From Chondrosia reniformis (taxonomy: Eukaryota > Porifera > Demospongiae > Chondrillida > Chondrillidae): 64,000 bases of DNA. The notes under the pieces were generated by a model. That model saw only the letters and a list, made by a program, of their open reading frames with translations, ran no database searches and had not been told where the DNA came from. Positions 28,491 to 63,800 of this stretch are shown one piece after another. Made by a program: the position numbers and the translations under genes. The stretch covers positions 7,379,673 through 7,443,672 of the forward strand of contig OX359197.1 in NCBI GenBank assembly GCA_947172415.1, read 5' to 3'. How positions within the stretch are numbered: position 1 is the stretch's first letter; every line of letters begins with the position of its first letter.

Positions 28491-38794
<10,304 letters not shown>

Positions 38795-39172
38795 GGTCAC
38801 CGCTGCAAGCCTGCACCAGCAACCTTATAGCTAGCTACCTAGTACCTGTTCCACGAGGCTGATTGTTGCTTCATCGACATATAATATTGTGCAATATCAC
38901 CTCTTTGTAAAGGTTCATACTATGGAGCTACAAAATTCCTTACGGAATCGAGGCCCACTTTGGCGCTCCATAACACTCAAGATAACTAATTCATTTGCTT
39001 GATTCTGATTGATTACATTAGTGCATATATCTATACATGTGTATGCGCATTCATGAACAAATTTCCGGTTGCATATGCAAGCAGTCTCAAAAGCGTGACC
39101 AGTTGTGGTTATATATACGTACGTTGTTTGCTTTGCCCGAGCTGAAGTGACTGGTTAACAACTTCTCCAACC
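38795..39172. promoter_or_regulatory. Probable shared head-to-head promoter of DDX43 and the selenoprotein gene
   Basis: Only 378 bp separate the DDX43 start codon (minus, 38794) from the selenoprotein start codon (plus, 39173), so both promoters and 5'UTRs must lie here. I recognise no specific factor site. Confidence 0.55.
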
Positions 39173-40387
39173 ATGGCAGAATCGCCCTCTGAACAAATGG
39201 GCGAATCGCAACCCGAACGTGAGCAGGAGACTGACGCGGAGACCCCAAGTGCAGAGAAGAGTTTAGTTGAGCACTTTGAGGAGACGTGTTCCAAGAACGA
39301 CGCAACCTTTGTGGTCTACTACAGAGGAGTTTGGTGACCCTACTGCAAGGTAAGGCGGCTTAGTAATGCTTATGATCATTGTATTAATCTTCTCCCTCTC
39401 CTCTCAGAACTACCTCAAGGAGTTTAACCAACTTCTTGAGGAGTTCAAACAGCTAAACGTTACCATCTTCGGGGTGTGTGCGCAAGAACAGGCTGATGTT
39501 GACAAAGCAGTTCAAAGTTGGGAACTAAACTATTCTGTTAGCAATCCCCAAGCAATCCTTCACGCATGTACAGATGTATGATGTGGTTGTCACTCCTTTC
39601 CCCTTCTGTAGTGTTTCTCTGATCCAACTCATACACTCAATAAACATCTTCAAGAGAAATTTGAGTTTGCAGTCAAGGTATCTGGAGGGGAGGGGTCAAC
39701 TGACTCCTCCTTCTATAAGGTCCACCCATCCATTAAGCAATACAAGTATGGTGTTGCACAACCTGGTGTACTATGTGTAAATCGAGAAGGAAAGAAGCTG
39801 TATTCTTGGGCCATTGACCCCTCATTTGTAAGTTGCATTCCTTTGGCTCCCATGAGGGCTCTAATGTTCCTTTCACTACCCACATGACCAAAGATTCATT
39901 CATGATAATTCAACTAGCTTGGCCATAAAATACAGTTATACTGGAAGTGATTCTGAAGGACTTCATGTGCAATGGTATTTCTGTGCATCCTATTAGGCAA
40001 GAAAACAGTTACAAATAGAAAAGACTATTTTCCTATACTTGTGTCTTAGGGTAAATCTAAATATTAGTTGTGTGTGCTACTGCTGCATATGCAGTGTAGT
40101 TACAGTCAGGAAAGTGCTAAGTACAGCTAAGTACAGCTAAGATAGCAATTCAATATTCAACTTGTTTTTGTGATGTGTGACCCTTTTGATAGTTCAACCA
40201 GCTAAATGAATTTTAATGGTAGTCATTCTGACTGTTTACTTTAACCGCATAGATGAACTTGGGTGGTGCAACTGACAGACCAGTTCCAGTGGACATTTGG
40301 AAGTACATTAAAGGTCGAATCACTGGAGAGAACACAAGTGAAGTCCCACCTTCAATGAGAAAGAGAGGGAAATTGTCTCTATTCTGA
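39173..40387 (+). CDS. Thioredoxin-fold (Prx-like/AhpC-TSA type) selenoprotein, SelenoL-like, 231 aa with Sec55
   Basis: Exons: 39173-39349, 39408-39575, 39612-39827 and 40253-40387, all in phase. Exon 1 contains an in-frame TGA at 39335-39337 within YYRGVW-TGA-PYCK. Reading it as selenocysteine gives the redox motif U-P-Y-C in the position of the peroxiredoxin-like CxxC, after a beta-strand (FVVYYRG). The fold continues uninterrupted for three more exons (TIFGVCAQEQADVDKAVQSW, YGVAQPGVLCVNREGK, ending DIWKYIKGRITG), so the TGA is not a terminator. A SECIS-like hairpin follows in the 3'UTR at about 40476-40550. The closest known group is the Prx-like selenoprotein L family of aquatic animals, which usually has UxxU; here the second position is Cys (TGC). 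A redox enzyme role is expected; its substrate is unknown. The family name is moderately sure; selenoprotein status is strongly supported. Confidence 0.9.
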
Positions 40388-40475
40388 GAGCATCTGGAAA
40401 TGGTCACATCTCGACTCAAAAACCTATCTTTCTTTGAATTCATTGTCTTGTTTTTCATTTCTTCTGTCATTGTAA

Positions 40476-40550
40476 GTTTGAGTTTAGCCATGATGCACTT
40501 GTAGTGAAACTGCTTTTAGCAGCACTCAAGAGCTGATACTCTATAGAAAC
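40476..40550 (+). promoter_or_regulatory. SECIS element in the selenoprotein 3'UTR
   Basis: The SECIS quartet partners are ATGA at 40490-40493 and TGA at 40534-40536. Between them, 40495-40506 (GCACTTGTAGTG) pairs with 40523-40533 (CACTCAAGAGC) through one A-A mismatch and one bulged U. The apical region has AAA at 40507-40509, then a small extra stem CTGC-TTTTA-GCAG (40510-40522), as in form 2 SECIS. It lies 103 bases after the stop codon. A lower stem is only weakly paired (GAGT with ACTC). Confidence 0.85.
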
Positions 40551-40716
40551 TCTACTTGATTGTAACAGATGATTTATAGTTTACATACGGTCCAAATCAC
40601 CCTCAAGCGCCTCCTAATGATAACGACCCCACATTTCAGGAAGCGCCACCCAGCTAGACAGTCTCTCAATTTTTAGCTCGATCGAAAGCGCCCCTTGTAG
40701 TTTTCATTTCTAGTTG

Positions 40717-40914
40717 ATGCGAATGCGGTACAACACTTGCAATTGACCACCAGCTGCAGCACCTTAGATTTCGATAGCGAGTTTTGACGTCAAATGAAGC
40801 CATAGACAGATGATCTACATGATCTTCCGGGTCTATTTCCTGCTCGCCTTTCCTATGTATAAGGAGCTGTGCAGAAGGACTTTCTATAATACAGTGTTGT
40901 ACCGCATTCGCCTT
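40717..40914. repeat. 19-bp perfect inverted repeat spaced by about 155 bp
   Basis: GCGAATGCGGTACAACACT near 40719-40737 is the exact reverse complement of a segment near 40895-40913. It lies in a more CpG-rich stretch upstream of the sulfotransferase gene. It may be the ends of a small element or a regulatory palindrome. Confidence 0.7.
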
Positions 40915-41027
40915 CAGTCCAAGGCTGGTTTAAATGGGGGACCTATGGTTACAGTATCTAGGGTTAAAGTGGTAGATATAGGAATTCATTAAATTTTTGC
41001 CCTCACAATACGATTAGCATTCGGCAA

Positions 41028-42236
41028 ATGGCCGCGTCTTTGAGAAAGATTATAGTGATTCTCTCTACGGCCTCATTGCTAGCCATAATTGGCATTTTAT
41101 CGCAGCAAAACTCATTGTCCAGGACTTCAGATGCAGTAGCAACTCTACCTCGTCACCATTCTATTTATTCTTTTAATACAATGTCGGATTTATCTAACAG
41201 AGATGCCCAGTCGATCCCCCTTGTACAGAAAGCAGTGAAAGAGCTTAAATCACACCCAAGTTTCCTCGAATCTTTTAAAAATCCGTGTTGGTTTGGGGCT
41301 GGAAACCTCTCTTGTCTTCCGTACTTCTATCTTCTTGGCTACCCGAAGTGCGGGACGACTAAATTGTACAATCTCCTGAAGATACACCCTCACTATGCTA
41401 GTTCGAAGATAAAGGAACCGCATTATTGGAGGAAACAACGAAATTACATCTCGTATTCTAACATCACCGGAACTGTGGAACTGAAACCGTCTATTTCAAA
41501 GTATGCTAAAGTATTCAAGACCGCAAGCTCGCTGATCTATTCGTCACCGGGTCAAATGATAACAGGCGATTGTTCCGCCTCGACTGCATGGGACTTGCCG
41601 TTTGGATTGCCGATTGAGATGGTTGGCTATGATGCGATACCTTACATGATCCATTCCATTCTACCTAATGCTAAATTCATTGTAATTATGAGGAATCCGT
41701 CTGATCGCCTTCGATCTGAATATTACTACTTTGGAATCAAGTATAAATATACTTTAAGTGCCGATGATTTTCACGAACTGACAATAGCATTTATTAATGC
41801 ATACAAGTCGTGTACATCAGCTGGATTCTCTGAATTGCATTGTATCTACTCTAGGCAGCTGAAATATGCACATTTTCGCCCTCTAGTCAGCATGTATTAT
41901 TATAGTTTGGCAAGATGGTTCAAGTATTTCAAGAGAGAACAATTTTTACTTTTAACTACTGATGAACTCGCAGAAGATGAACTAACTGTTGCATTGCAAA
42001 TGTACCAATTTCTAGGTCTAGCTAAACCGAACGCTCATATACTGAACCTTGTACAGAAACGTGAAGGTAGGCAGGTCAACTCAATAAAGAAAAGAATGTC
42101 AAAATATCATACAAGTCTGGCTCCAACAGTACATAACAAGACAATAAAAATACTGAATCAATTCTTTGAACCATTTAATGCTAAACTTGCGTCATTGGTA
42201 GGGGATAATAAGTTTCTATGGAAAGCTAGCTACTAG
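41028..42236 (+). CDS. Intronless CHST15-like carbohydrate sulfotransferase, 402 aa
   Basis: Single-exon type II membrane protein. A short cytoplasmic start (MAASLRK) is followed by a hydrophobic signal anchor at about residues 8-25, so a Golgi-lumen enzyme is expected. The 5'-phosphosulfate loop is YPKCGTTKLYNLL (about residue 105) and the 3'-phosphate site is IVIMRNPSDRLRSEYY (about residue 220). KEPHYW and GDCSASTAWD between them are typical of the GalNAc-4-sulfate 6-O-sulfotransferase (CHST15) group. It uses PAPS to sulfate a glycan; the acceptor cannot be told. The neighbours at 50132 and 54568 are paralogues with an intron after the membrane anchor and a long stalk, both absent here. 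Confidence 0.92.
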   Translation: MAASLRKIIVILSTASLLAIIGILSQQNSLSRTSDAVATLPRHHSIYSFNTMSDLSNRDAQSIPLVQKAVKELKSHPSFLESFKNPCWFGAGNLSCLPYFYLLGYPKCGTTKLYNLLKIHPHYASSKIKEPHYWRKQRNYISYSNITGTVELKPSISKYAKVFKTASSLIYSSPGQMITGDCSASTAWDLPFGLPIEMVGYDAIPYMIHSILPNAKFIVIMRNPSDRLRSEYYYFGIKYKYTLSADDFHELTIAFINAYKSCTSAGFSELHCIYSRQLKYAHFRPLVSMYYYSLARWFKYFKREQFLLLTTDELAEDELTVALQMYQFLGLAKPNAHILNLVQKREGRQVNSIKKRMSKYHTSLAPTVHNKTIKILNQFFEPFNAKLASLVGDNKFLWKASY

Positions 42237-60800: not shown

Positions 60801-63800
60801 TAATGCAGAGATAACAATAATATTATAATTATACCTCCTGAGAGCTCTTCAGATCTTTTACCAGCGGTAGTCTTCAACTTTGACCACTTCAGATCAAGGT
60901 CATGCATCATGGCTTGAACTACTGGCGATGCACGGGGATGCGCCATCTCCAAGATGTCTCTGCCACATTCCAGTGCCTTCTCAAGCTCCGGCTGTTTAGA
61001 GTGTATACTTGCTACAAAGTCCTGAAGAGGGAGCATGCAGCTGGTATTAAAAAGTAGATCACACATCCACACATCCATACAAGCACATCCACATCCACAC
61101 ATCCACACATCCACACTGACCTTTTGGTCCTGGATCTGCTTGTCCAGTTTGTTGGGGTTGTCGGATGGCGGTGCAGGATCACTAAGATGATCCAGATTCT
61201 CATCCATCCACTGCATCAACCCGTCATACTGTGACTGGAAGGACTTGGCATCCTTGCAGAAGAGTAGTACAACCATTAACCTTACCCATGCACCCTCTAA
61301 TAGAGGTGACACTCACTTTGAGAGCTCCCTTTAGTCTCTCTTGTTTGGAGGCAGCCAGAGCTCTGACCTCATCCCACAGTGCAACCAGCTCATCCACTTC
61401 CTTCTGAGTCTCCAATGGCTCATCTAAATAGTTGTCAATCAGATCCTTGGCGCACTCCTTGATTGCTTCATACTTCTTCTCCTGCCCTACCAGCTCCTTC
61501 TCCAGTGCCTGTATCACAGAAGAGGCTTCTATTAAACCTCTTTCGAAAGATAGGGTCTTAATTGTACATCTTAGAAGGACAAATAATCAAGTTCATAGAG
61601 ATCTCCAGCAAACGAGGTTGGAATTGTAGATGGGTGGGCTCCAATTGGGTATATAAGCTTACCTTGTGTTCGGTAATGAGTTGTCTAACAGTAGCCACGT
61701 CACCATGTACAGGAGCATTCTCATCAAGCTGGGCAAGGGTTTTCCCCAACCAGGTCCTCAGGGGACTCAATAACACTCTGAACTCTCCCAACTTCCTATA
61801 GGCTTCCTACAGGGGTGGACATGTTCTTGTGAACATACTCAGTATATCTCAGTATATCTCAGTATATCTCCAACCTAGCACAATATCCTACAAACACCTC
61901 AATGTGGAAACACATTAAAATACACTTTAGGTGGAAATTGCAACTTCACTGCCTGACCCAATGAGTACGCACCTGTAATTTGTCTTGCCTGCTGACAGAC
62001 TTCTGACAGACTTCATCCCACTTCTTCTCAATGTCATCCAACTTAGCTTTAACCAAAGCTTCATCTTCTCCCTCCTTCTGCTTCTTCAGAAGGTTCCCTG
62101 CCTTCAGGACAGAGTTTAAACTGGAATTCCTAGCTCCCAACTGTTTCTGGAAAGCCTGCATAGGACACAACACGGGTCAATAAAACTGCAGAAAAAGGTC
62201 AGTGACAGACCAACTTTGTGTTTGTTTCGAAGTGTACCAACAGCATCAGGATCACCTAATCACAGACAAAATTCAAGAATATGTCCACACGGAGACACAA
62301 CCACACAAAGACACACCCACACGAAGACACACCCACACAGACACACCCACACAGAGACACACCCATCTAAATATCGGTGCAAGGTATGTTCAAACCTGTT
62401 ATTGATTCAGGATTGTCAAGCTGGTCCTCAGCATCTGTCAACCATTTCATCAACTCATCATAAGCTTCTTCAAACTGTCCCAAAGCCAATAGCGCCTCCT
62501 CTAACTTGCTTTGCCTTTCACTGCCTTCAGCATTCACAATGTCCCATTTGGCCTTAAGTAGAAGGACACAAAAGGACAGATTATTTCCTTTCCAGCTCAG
62601 TTAGTACTTCTCTGTCAGTGGGTCATGAAGACTAACTTGTAGCTCCTCTAGTTTCTTCTGAACGACCTCAGCATCCTCTGGAACACACTGCCTACACAGC
62701 AGCTGGCCACAGCCAACCACCTCATCAACCCTGTGCTCACTGTCATCCAAATCCTTCTGAAAGGTCTACTCAGATGGATGAAAGGTTACCATGGAGATCA
62801 CATGTGACCACAAGTGCAGGTCCAAAGAGACATACCTTGTGGTCTTCCAATTGTTTCTTTACTGCCTCTAGCTCTGAATGAATGGGCTCCTCCCTCTCCT
62901 GTTCTAACTCTTTCTCGTTCAACCAGCTCAGAACGTCATTGTACATCAAATCAAACTCTTCTGCCTGAGTCTTGGCTACATCTAGCTGCTGTCCCCGGTC
63001 ACCCAGACCTGCCAAGAGGTCTTCATACCTGCAGTAAGGGGAGAGCAGTGAAGGGGAGAGCAGTGAAGGGGGGAGCAGTGAAGGAGTGCCCATCAGAACA
63101 GCAAATACTTGCCTCTGCCTGACTGCCCTGACCCAATTGTCCACCTGCTGCTGCTCCTGTGAATCTCCCTGTGGCTTCAAGCCCTCTCCCTCTGATTTCA
63201 ATGCCTCAACTGGTGGGGCATGTGCCTTGACCTAAAGGAACAGGTACAAAGGACACCAAACCCTTGTTAGGGAGAGTGACACTGTAGCACACTGATATAC
63301 GAACCTCTTCAATTAGGGCTTCAAGAGACTTTATGTCTTTTGCACAACTCTCTGGAAGTCCATGTACTTTGTCATCGAGTCCAATTACCTTCTCTGTATC
63401 ATCCAACCAATCAATTTCCTTCTTTCTGTTGCCATGGAATCGTTTAGCCTTCTCAAGGGCATTGTTCAGTTCCTTATCTCGAGCCTCACAGCGTCTGTTC
63501 AACTCCTCCCACCTACACACATACACGAGGACAAATGTAGGAATCTGGACACAAAGGTTACAAACTGCAGTGGTACCAACTTGCTGTTGAAGTCTTTGAT
63601 ATCAGCTCTAAGATCAGAAGTGTCACCCGAACTACTAGAACTTATCAGTTGTCCGGCAGCATCCCTCACAGAAGCAACACTAGGAGTTCTTGCTTCTATT
63701 TCTGTCTTTAGCTCCTGTTTATGTAGAAAGATAGGTCAATATGCCAGTTGAGGCCTCTAGCAGCCAGCTCATCCCACCCACCTGCAGATCAGCCATTTTC

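Follow-up and report, generated by a model that had tools for sequence, protein, structure and literature searches.

A gene in the window, the 64,000-nt stretch of Chondrosia reniformis DNA analyzed here (C9:7379673–7443672 of a genome of 117,379,552 bases in 15 contigs), very probably encodes a peroxiredoxin (Prx)-like selenoprotein with an AhpC/TSA domain, in which the UGA at codon 55 is read as Sec by means of a type II SECIS, and which is not Selenoprotein L (SelL), resembles the bacterial UxxC proteins and most likely belongs with the AphC-like selenoproteins of sponges. The preliminary description of this DNA had taken the gene for a SelenoL-like one and a possible intermediate in the history of the UxxU motif. 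Its account of a UPYC selenoprotein gene of a sponge, AhpC/Prx-like by sequence and provided with a SECIS candidate, stands; the SelenoL placement and the role of intermediate do not.

The gene extends over positions 39173–40387 (+) and comprises four exons holding 218 codons and a TGA stop (Table 1). The frame starts with the ATG at 39173 and meets an in-frame TGA at codon 55, which is followed by PYCK up to the donor at 39350. Codon 58 is TGC (Cys58), giving the motif UPYC, and the residues preceding Sec55 are VVYYRGVW. All four exons are in phase 0, the introns begin with GT and end with AG, and the four-exon frame contains no internal stop besides the TGA at codon 55. The gttagc donor of intron 2 seems weak, but the join between exons 2 and 3 agrees with the homology, LNYS/CFSDP aligning without a gap with LNFPVLSDP of one relative. 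The assembly has a QV of 69.8, as far as the text of the genome report tells (PMC12181767), so a single-base error turning TGC into TGA at this position is unlikely.

Table 1. Coordinates of the selenoprotein gene and of related features (positions in the window unless a contig is named)
Feature	Position	Strand	Details
Exon 1	39173–39349	+	Codons 1–59, ending in ...GVW-U-PYCK; open frame save for one TGA
TGA read as Sec55 (predicted)	39335–39337	+	UPYC, Sec replacing the first Cys of CPYC
Exon 2	39408–39536	+	Codons 60–102; in phase and with Pfam match
Exon 3	39612–39827	+	Codons 103–174; in phase and with Pfam match
Exon 4	40253–40387	+	Codons 175–218 and the TGA stop at 40385–40387
Open frame after the stop	40388–40504	+	38 codons, hydrophobic; TAG end inside the SECIS candidate
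Type II SECIS candidate	40490–40537	+	First-ranked in the consensus scan; fold; 102 nt after the stop
SelL, UMPU (UxxU)	C10:7230008–7230451		122.4 bits to NF040769 (over the cut-off); two TGAs in one open frame
SelL-like UHPC gene	C10:5898021–5898494	−	78–81 bits to NF040769 (range of the three genes), under the cut-off; SECIS candidate
SelL-like UHPC gene	C10:5901039–5901512	+	78–81 bits to NF040769 (range of the three genes), under the cut-off; SECIS candidate
SelL-like UHPC gene	C10:5906911–5907384	+	78–81 bits to NF040769 (range of the three genes), under the cut-off; SECIS candidate

Comparison of the four-exon protein with Pfam revealed a match to AhpC-TSA at residues 41–120 (56.4 bits, gathering cut-off 26), which spans the TGA and exons 1–3. 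The matches to Redoxin (39.1 bits, cut-off 26.6) and Thioredoxin (26.3 bits, cut-off 23.5) also run across the TGA, and a PDB search returned 45 sequences at E≤1, mainly PDI, Trx and Prx-like, the best at 1.1e-4. When the protein was aligned with seven plasmid-encoded relatives, picked from 23 matching records and with Cys entered for the Sec of the window protein, R51, G52, position 55, P56 and C58 were invariant. Position 55 is Cys in all seven relatives, so that the in-frame TGA does lie, as first noted, where the CxxC begins. The Arg of an RP motif near the C-terminal end was invariant both in this alignment and in one with SelL, UHPC and bacterial proteins; compared with the plasmid relatives, the window protein has an additional stretch, MNLGGA, ahead of the RP motif, and no relative ending in MNLGGATDRP was found on plasmids.

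Two other assignments were rejected. The family PF13911 (AhpC-TSA_2), which we take to be the Pfam model of SelU/PRXL2, was absent among the eight Pfam families that the protein matched at E≤10, and we do not place it in SelU/PRXL2. Canonical peroxiredoxins carry the active-site signature PxxxT/SxxC; this signature is absent from the window protein, where VVYYRGVW stands before the Sec, and a classical peroxiredoxin was therefore discounted. Judged from its motif and domain family, the protein is likely to be a Prx/Trx-like oxidoreductase using a Sec55–Cys58 selenenylsulfide, the bond that the preliminary description had proposed and that is the natural expectation for a Sec–Cys pair. The Sec55 selenolate, as the attacking residue of the motif, would reduce a peroxide or a disulfide, both being possible substrates because the classical Prx signature is missing; Cys58 would then resolve the intermediate to the selenenylsulfide, which thioredoxin or glutathione could reopen.

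The SECIS candidate in the 3′ UTR reads ATGAT - GCACTTGTAGTG - AAACTGCTTTTAGCAG - CACTCAAGAGC - TGAT. It consists of an ATGA-T quartet, a helix interrupted by a single A.A mismatch and a single bulged U, the AAA apical bases and a TGAT quartet, with an apical mini-stem of 4 bp (CTGC/GCAG), and thus combines a TGA/GA quartet, AA apical bases and a stable helix at a 3′ UTR position. We scored it with a purpose-written consensus scan, designed after the candidate had been seen and with settings that were not blind. On both strands of the window the candidate ranked first of ten matches scoring at least 15, with 23.0; the runner-up at 63063 (20.9) falls within a repeated GC-rich stretch and was taken as a chance match. 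The best of 11 matches in 320 kb of background (both strands of 16 × 10 kb from the same genome) scored 18.5, and sequence simulated at two compositions, 8 Mb each, gave 2 and 4 matches of at least 23, corresponding to a chance expectation of 0.00015–0.0003 per 600 nt. As controls, the scan gave 25.0 after SelL, 18.3, 18.3 and 15.5 after the three SelL-like genes, and 18.8 after a GPx gene whose end was judged by eye. Three of the five control scores fell inside the background range, of which the window candidate was clear; the scan alone therefore does not separate every SECIS.

The helix and apical loop of the candidate have a folding energy of −13.2 kcal/mol, more stable than in any of five control candidates of the genome (−8.9 to −12.2; in this part two of them have identical sequences), and 2 of 95 loose background candidates were as stable. 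The MFE z-score was −0.60, compared with −3.11, −2.99 and −1.56 for three controls of the same genome, which were better, and −0.03 for GPx, which was worse. An own SECIS in the 3′ UTR, as previously claimed, is upheld at the level of a candidate: the consensus scan returned 40490–40537 as its top match, while the z-score speaks against it, as does an Rfam search of 38000–42000, which reported no SECIS even at E≤10.

The genome also carries genes of the Sec machinery. Six matches to tRNA-Sec were obtained, three of which were examined with ARAGORN: one scored 76.8 bits (cut-off 47) and was assigned the anticodon TCA, and a second, at 47.4 bits, was called tRNA-Ser. SepSecS was matched in six pieces belonging to a single locus. 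The eukaryotic machinery would decode the UGA of codon 55 as Sec via the type II SECIS of the 3′ UTR. That we are dealing instead with a decayed gene, a pseudogene in which a Cys codon mutated to TGA and a hairpin arose by chance, is most unlikely: the weak-looking donor of intron 2 and the unremarkable z-score would suit such decay, but the four in-phase exons contain no further internal stop, the TGA falls precisely on the conserved Cys column, the chance expectation of the SECIS candidate is low, and tRNA-Sec and SepSecS are present.

The window protein carries Sec as the first residue of a UxxC within RGxWUP[FY]C, matching a signature found in bacteria. A DNA pattern for [FY][FY]RGxWUP[FY]C including the TGA, run against a bacterial and archaeal genome collection, found the Sec motif in at least 120 stretches. 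Among the matches listed, 80 loci were from Acidobacteriota, Proteobacteria, Poribacteria, Desulfobacterales, Chloroflexi, Planctomycetes and others. In all 80 fetched loci the motif lay in an open frame (the TGA and the motif were set by the pattern, the open frames were not); 74 reached a stop within the locus, and 71 that were closed and had at least 45 codons upstream were used to build a profile. The matches listed included Sec-UxxC Prx-like genes of Desulfoluna spongiiphila and four Poribacteria loci, both bacterial groups that live with sponges. The bacterial matches resemble the published selenoproteins described as 'Prx-like, UxxC' (PMC1088965, PMC2398784, PMC13188914).

To place the gene relative to SelL, we used the NCBIfam model NF040769 (SelL_rel_redox, cut-off 120 bits), which matched five places in the genome. 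Four are the SelL gene and three SelL-like UHPC genes (Table 1); the latter have one TGA each and lie within about 10 kb (C10:5898021–5907384) on the same chromosome as SelL. The fifth, at C3:9036051–9036233, scored 24.9 bits, a weak match that covers the end of the SelL-related model and is interrupted by stops; it may be another Prx-like gene or exon. At the protein level SelL scored 136.8 bits, over the cut-off, and the UHPC protein tested 88.4, under it; the window protein reached 22.4, and two bacterial Cys relatives scored higher (24.8 and 37.4). SelL has a strong SECIS candidate 52 nt past its TAA stop and matches Pfam AhpC-TSA_2 with 47.7 bits, a family that the window protein does not match. 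Scored against a profile built from this genome's four SelL-like proteins, the window protein obtained 15.1 bits, inside the range of the seven plasmid Prx-like proteins (8.9–22.0). By contrast, the profile of the 71 bacterial Sec-UxxC proteins, which were found via the window's own motif, a bias that favors the window protein, gave it 71.3 bits, against 38.2 for SelL and 20–25 for the UHPC proteins; three other peroxiredoxins of the genome scored 23–41 and the plasmid Cys proteins 92–188.

The preliminary description saw in the gene a SelenoL-like member with Cys in place of the second Sec, a possible intermediate by which the UxxU diselenide motif was acquired or lost. We regard this as highly improbable and rejected SelenoL membership on the NCBIfam and own-genome profile scores. 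Both proteins are AhpC/Prx-like and share R-x(3)-U-x(2)-[UC] with a Pro within the motif, and seven columns, with Sec counted as Cys, are invariant across the window protein, SelL, one UHPC protein and two bacterial proteins. However, the Pro directly follows the Sec in UPYC and stands one place later in UMPU and UHPC, the UxxU of Selenoprotein L is lacking, and the window protein is 18% identical to SelL and 17% to UHPC, whereas its identity to two bacterial Prx-like proteins is 28% and 27%. A tree was built from 51 rows: 36 bacterial Sec proteins drawn from the 71, the seven plasmid Cys proteins, the four SelL-like proteins, three peroxiredoxins of the genome and the window protein. In it, SelL and the UHPC genes formed a clade with 100/100 support and the window protein, a long branch, fell outside; joining it to that clade gave a p-AU of 0.29, a value that leaves room for the SelenoL placement. 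A true SelL and the three UHPC genes are found at other loci of the genome, and a UxxU/UxxC transition is better sought in the UHPC genes. With SelL (UMPU) and three clustered UHPC genes on one chromosome, the UxxU/UxxC question can be asked in this very genome.

Closer relatives were sought in several collections. The motif with its TGA was not found in viral contigs; six viral stretches matched a pattern for close relatives, none of which was confirmed, and further viral searches returned none. No close relatives were found in phages. Among 398 genomes from a single phylum (that of a Gammaproteobacterium), 15 matched at E≤1e-6, the best with 42 bits, and none of these matches went past residue 109 of the 169-residue query, that is, its first two thirds. 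Only five of ten genomes carrying the bacterial motif matched the query at E≤0.001, and the query search therefore misses many distant family members. By the searches made the gene is single-copy in the sponge genome, the method being the one that missed five of the ten genomes known to carry a distant member.

Bacterial SECIS elements lie in the coding region, right after the UGA. Had the sponge acquired a bacterial Sec-UxxC Prx-like gene from a symbiont, a eukaryotic SECIS would have replaced the bacterial one. The Sec motif is common in bacteria, including Poribacteria, which are reported at high concentrations in Chondrosia reniformis (PMC12181767), and a similar origin has been proposed for the diatom AhpC_b (PMC7539508). 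Nevertheless, we consider such a symbiont origin very unlikely: the best identity in the set used for the tree was 26%, the 15 matching genomes of the 398 reached 42 bits at best and did not match beyond residue 109 of the query, and the gene has three introns. An old transfer from bacteria may have taken place.

Our preferred reading, a sponge selenoprotein of the AhpC/TSA type, has counterparts in several published systems. As far as the text of Jiang et al. 2012 (PMC3473315) tells, AphC-like selenoproteins were seen only in sponges, namely Amphimedon (three; Aq.AphC.like_a/b/c), Oscarella (two; Oc.AphC.like) and Suberites (partial; Sd.AphC.like), apart from the SelL of Amphimedon. Like the window gene, they come from sponges and have a Trx-like domain that locally resembles prokaryotic AhpC around the Sec, a reported SECIS and, in that account, one Sec; the exon number is also similar, one Amphimedon copy having five coding exons and the window gene four. 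They differ in that the SECIS core is GUGA_AA in Amphimedon and AUGA_AA here, and in that Amphimedon has three copies and the search of this genome found one. The window gene shows the sponge origin, AhpC-like domain, in-frame Sec codon and 3′ UTR SECIS candidate of this family, features that other Prx-like selenoproteins would also display; compared by description rather than by sequence, it most likely belongs to it (PMC3473315). On the same descriptive footing, the tandem pair in that account may correspond to the UHPC genes of this genome.

UxxC Prx-like selenoproteins have long been known in bacteria, according to the texts of PMC1088965 and PMC2398784. With these proteins (for example Prx-like 1, pfam00578; also PMC13188914, as described there) the window protein shares the AhpC-TSA domain and the Sec in first position of a Trx-like UxxC, whereas its gene has introns and a eukaryotic 3′ UTR SECIS candidate, and its identity to bacterial relatives is about 20–39% over the core. 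AhpC_b of Thalassiosira oceanica is likewise a eukaryotic AhpC_TSA selenoprotein with UxxC, whose database homologues are prokaryotic in the account given by PMC7539508; the likeness is one of description. SelL, with two Sec and a single SECIS as far as PMC3316567 describes it, is also Prx-like and carries its Sec in a motif whose two active residues have two others between them, but that motif is UxxU, the second Sec being preceded by Pro, and the protein is encoded here by a separate gene. The window gene looks like one more representative of a type that earlier work has reported from sponges and bacteria. With it, animal UxxC Prx-like selenoprotein genes gain an example from a chromosome-level sponge assembly; ordinary annotation tends to truncate genes of this sort at the TGA.

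The terminator of the window gene is itself a TGA, whereas the four SelL-like genes end in TAA (three) or TAG (one), 52–63 nt ahead of their SECIS candidates. The open frame beyond the terminator is probably untranslated. Its 19-residue hydropathy maximum is 2.54; when 20,000 tails were simulated with a similar composition, 3,432 were open as long and 113 had an open part as hydrophobic. The 102 nt between the UGA terminator and the SECIS candidate exceed the minimum of 51 nt reported for Sec insertion, as far as the text of PMC3737529 goes. The same SECIS might recode the terminator in a fraction of the products, giving a membrane-tailed isoform with a second Sec, but we hold this to be extremely improbable, a long shot, because the TAG that ends the tail lies inside the SECIS candidate, so that ribosomes making the tail would run into the SECIS, and because the T-rich 3′ UTR favors hydrophobic codons.

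The surroundings of the gene show further features. A likely head-to-head neighbor occupies 38452–38830 (−); its exons presumably resemble a KH domain, and one piece tested had no Pfam match. Just downstream of the gene, 40719–40737 and 40893–40911 are the 19-nt arms of a perfect inverted repeat, separated by 155 nt; this could be a small mobile element. Directly downstream follows an intronless-looking sulfotransferase gene at 41028–42233 (+), which matches Sulfotransfer_1 with 61.6 bits.
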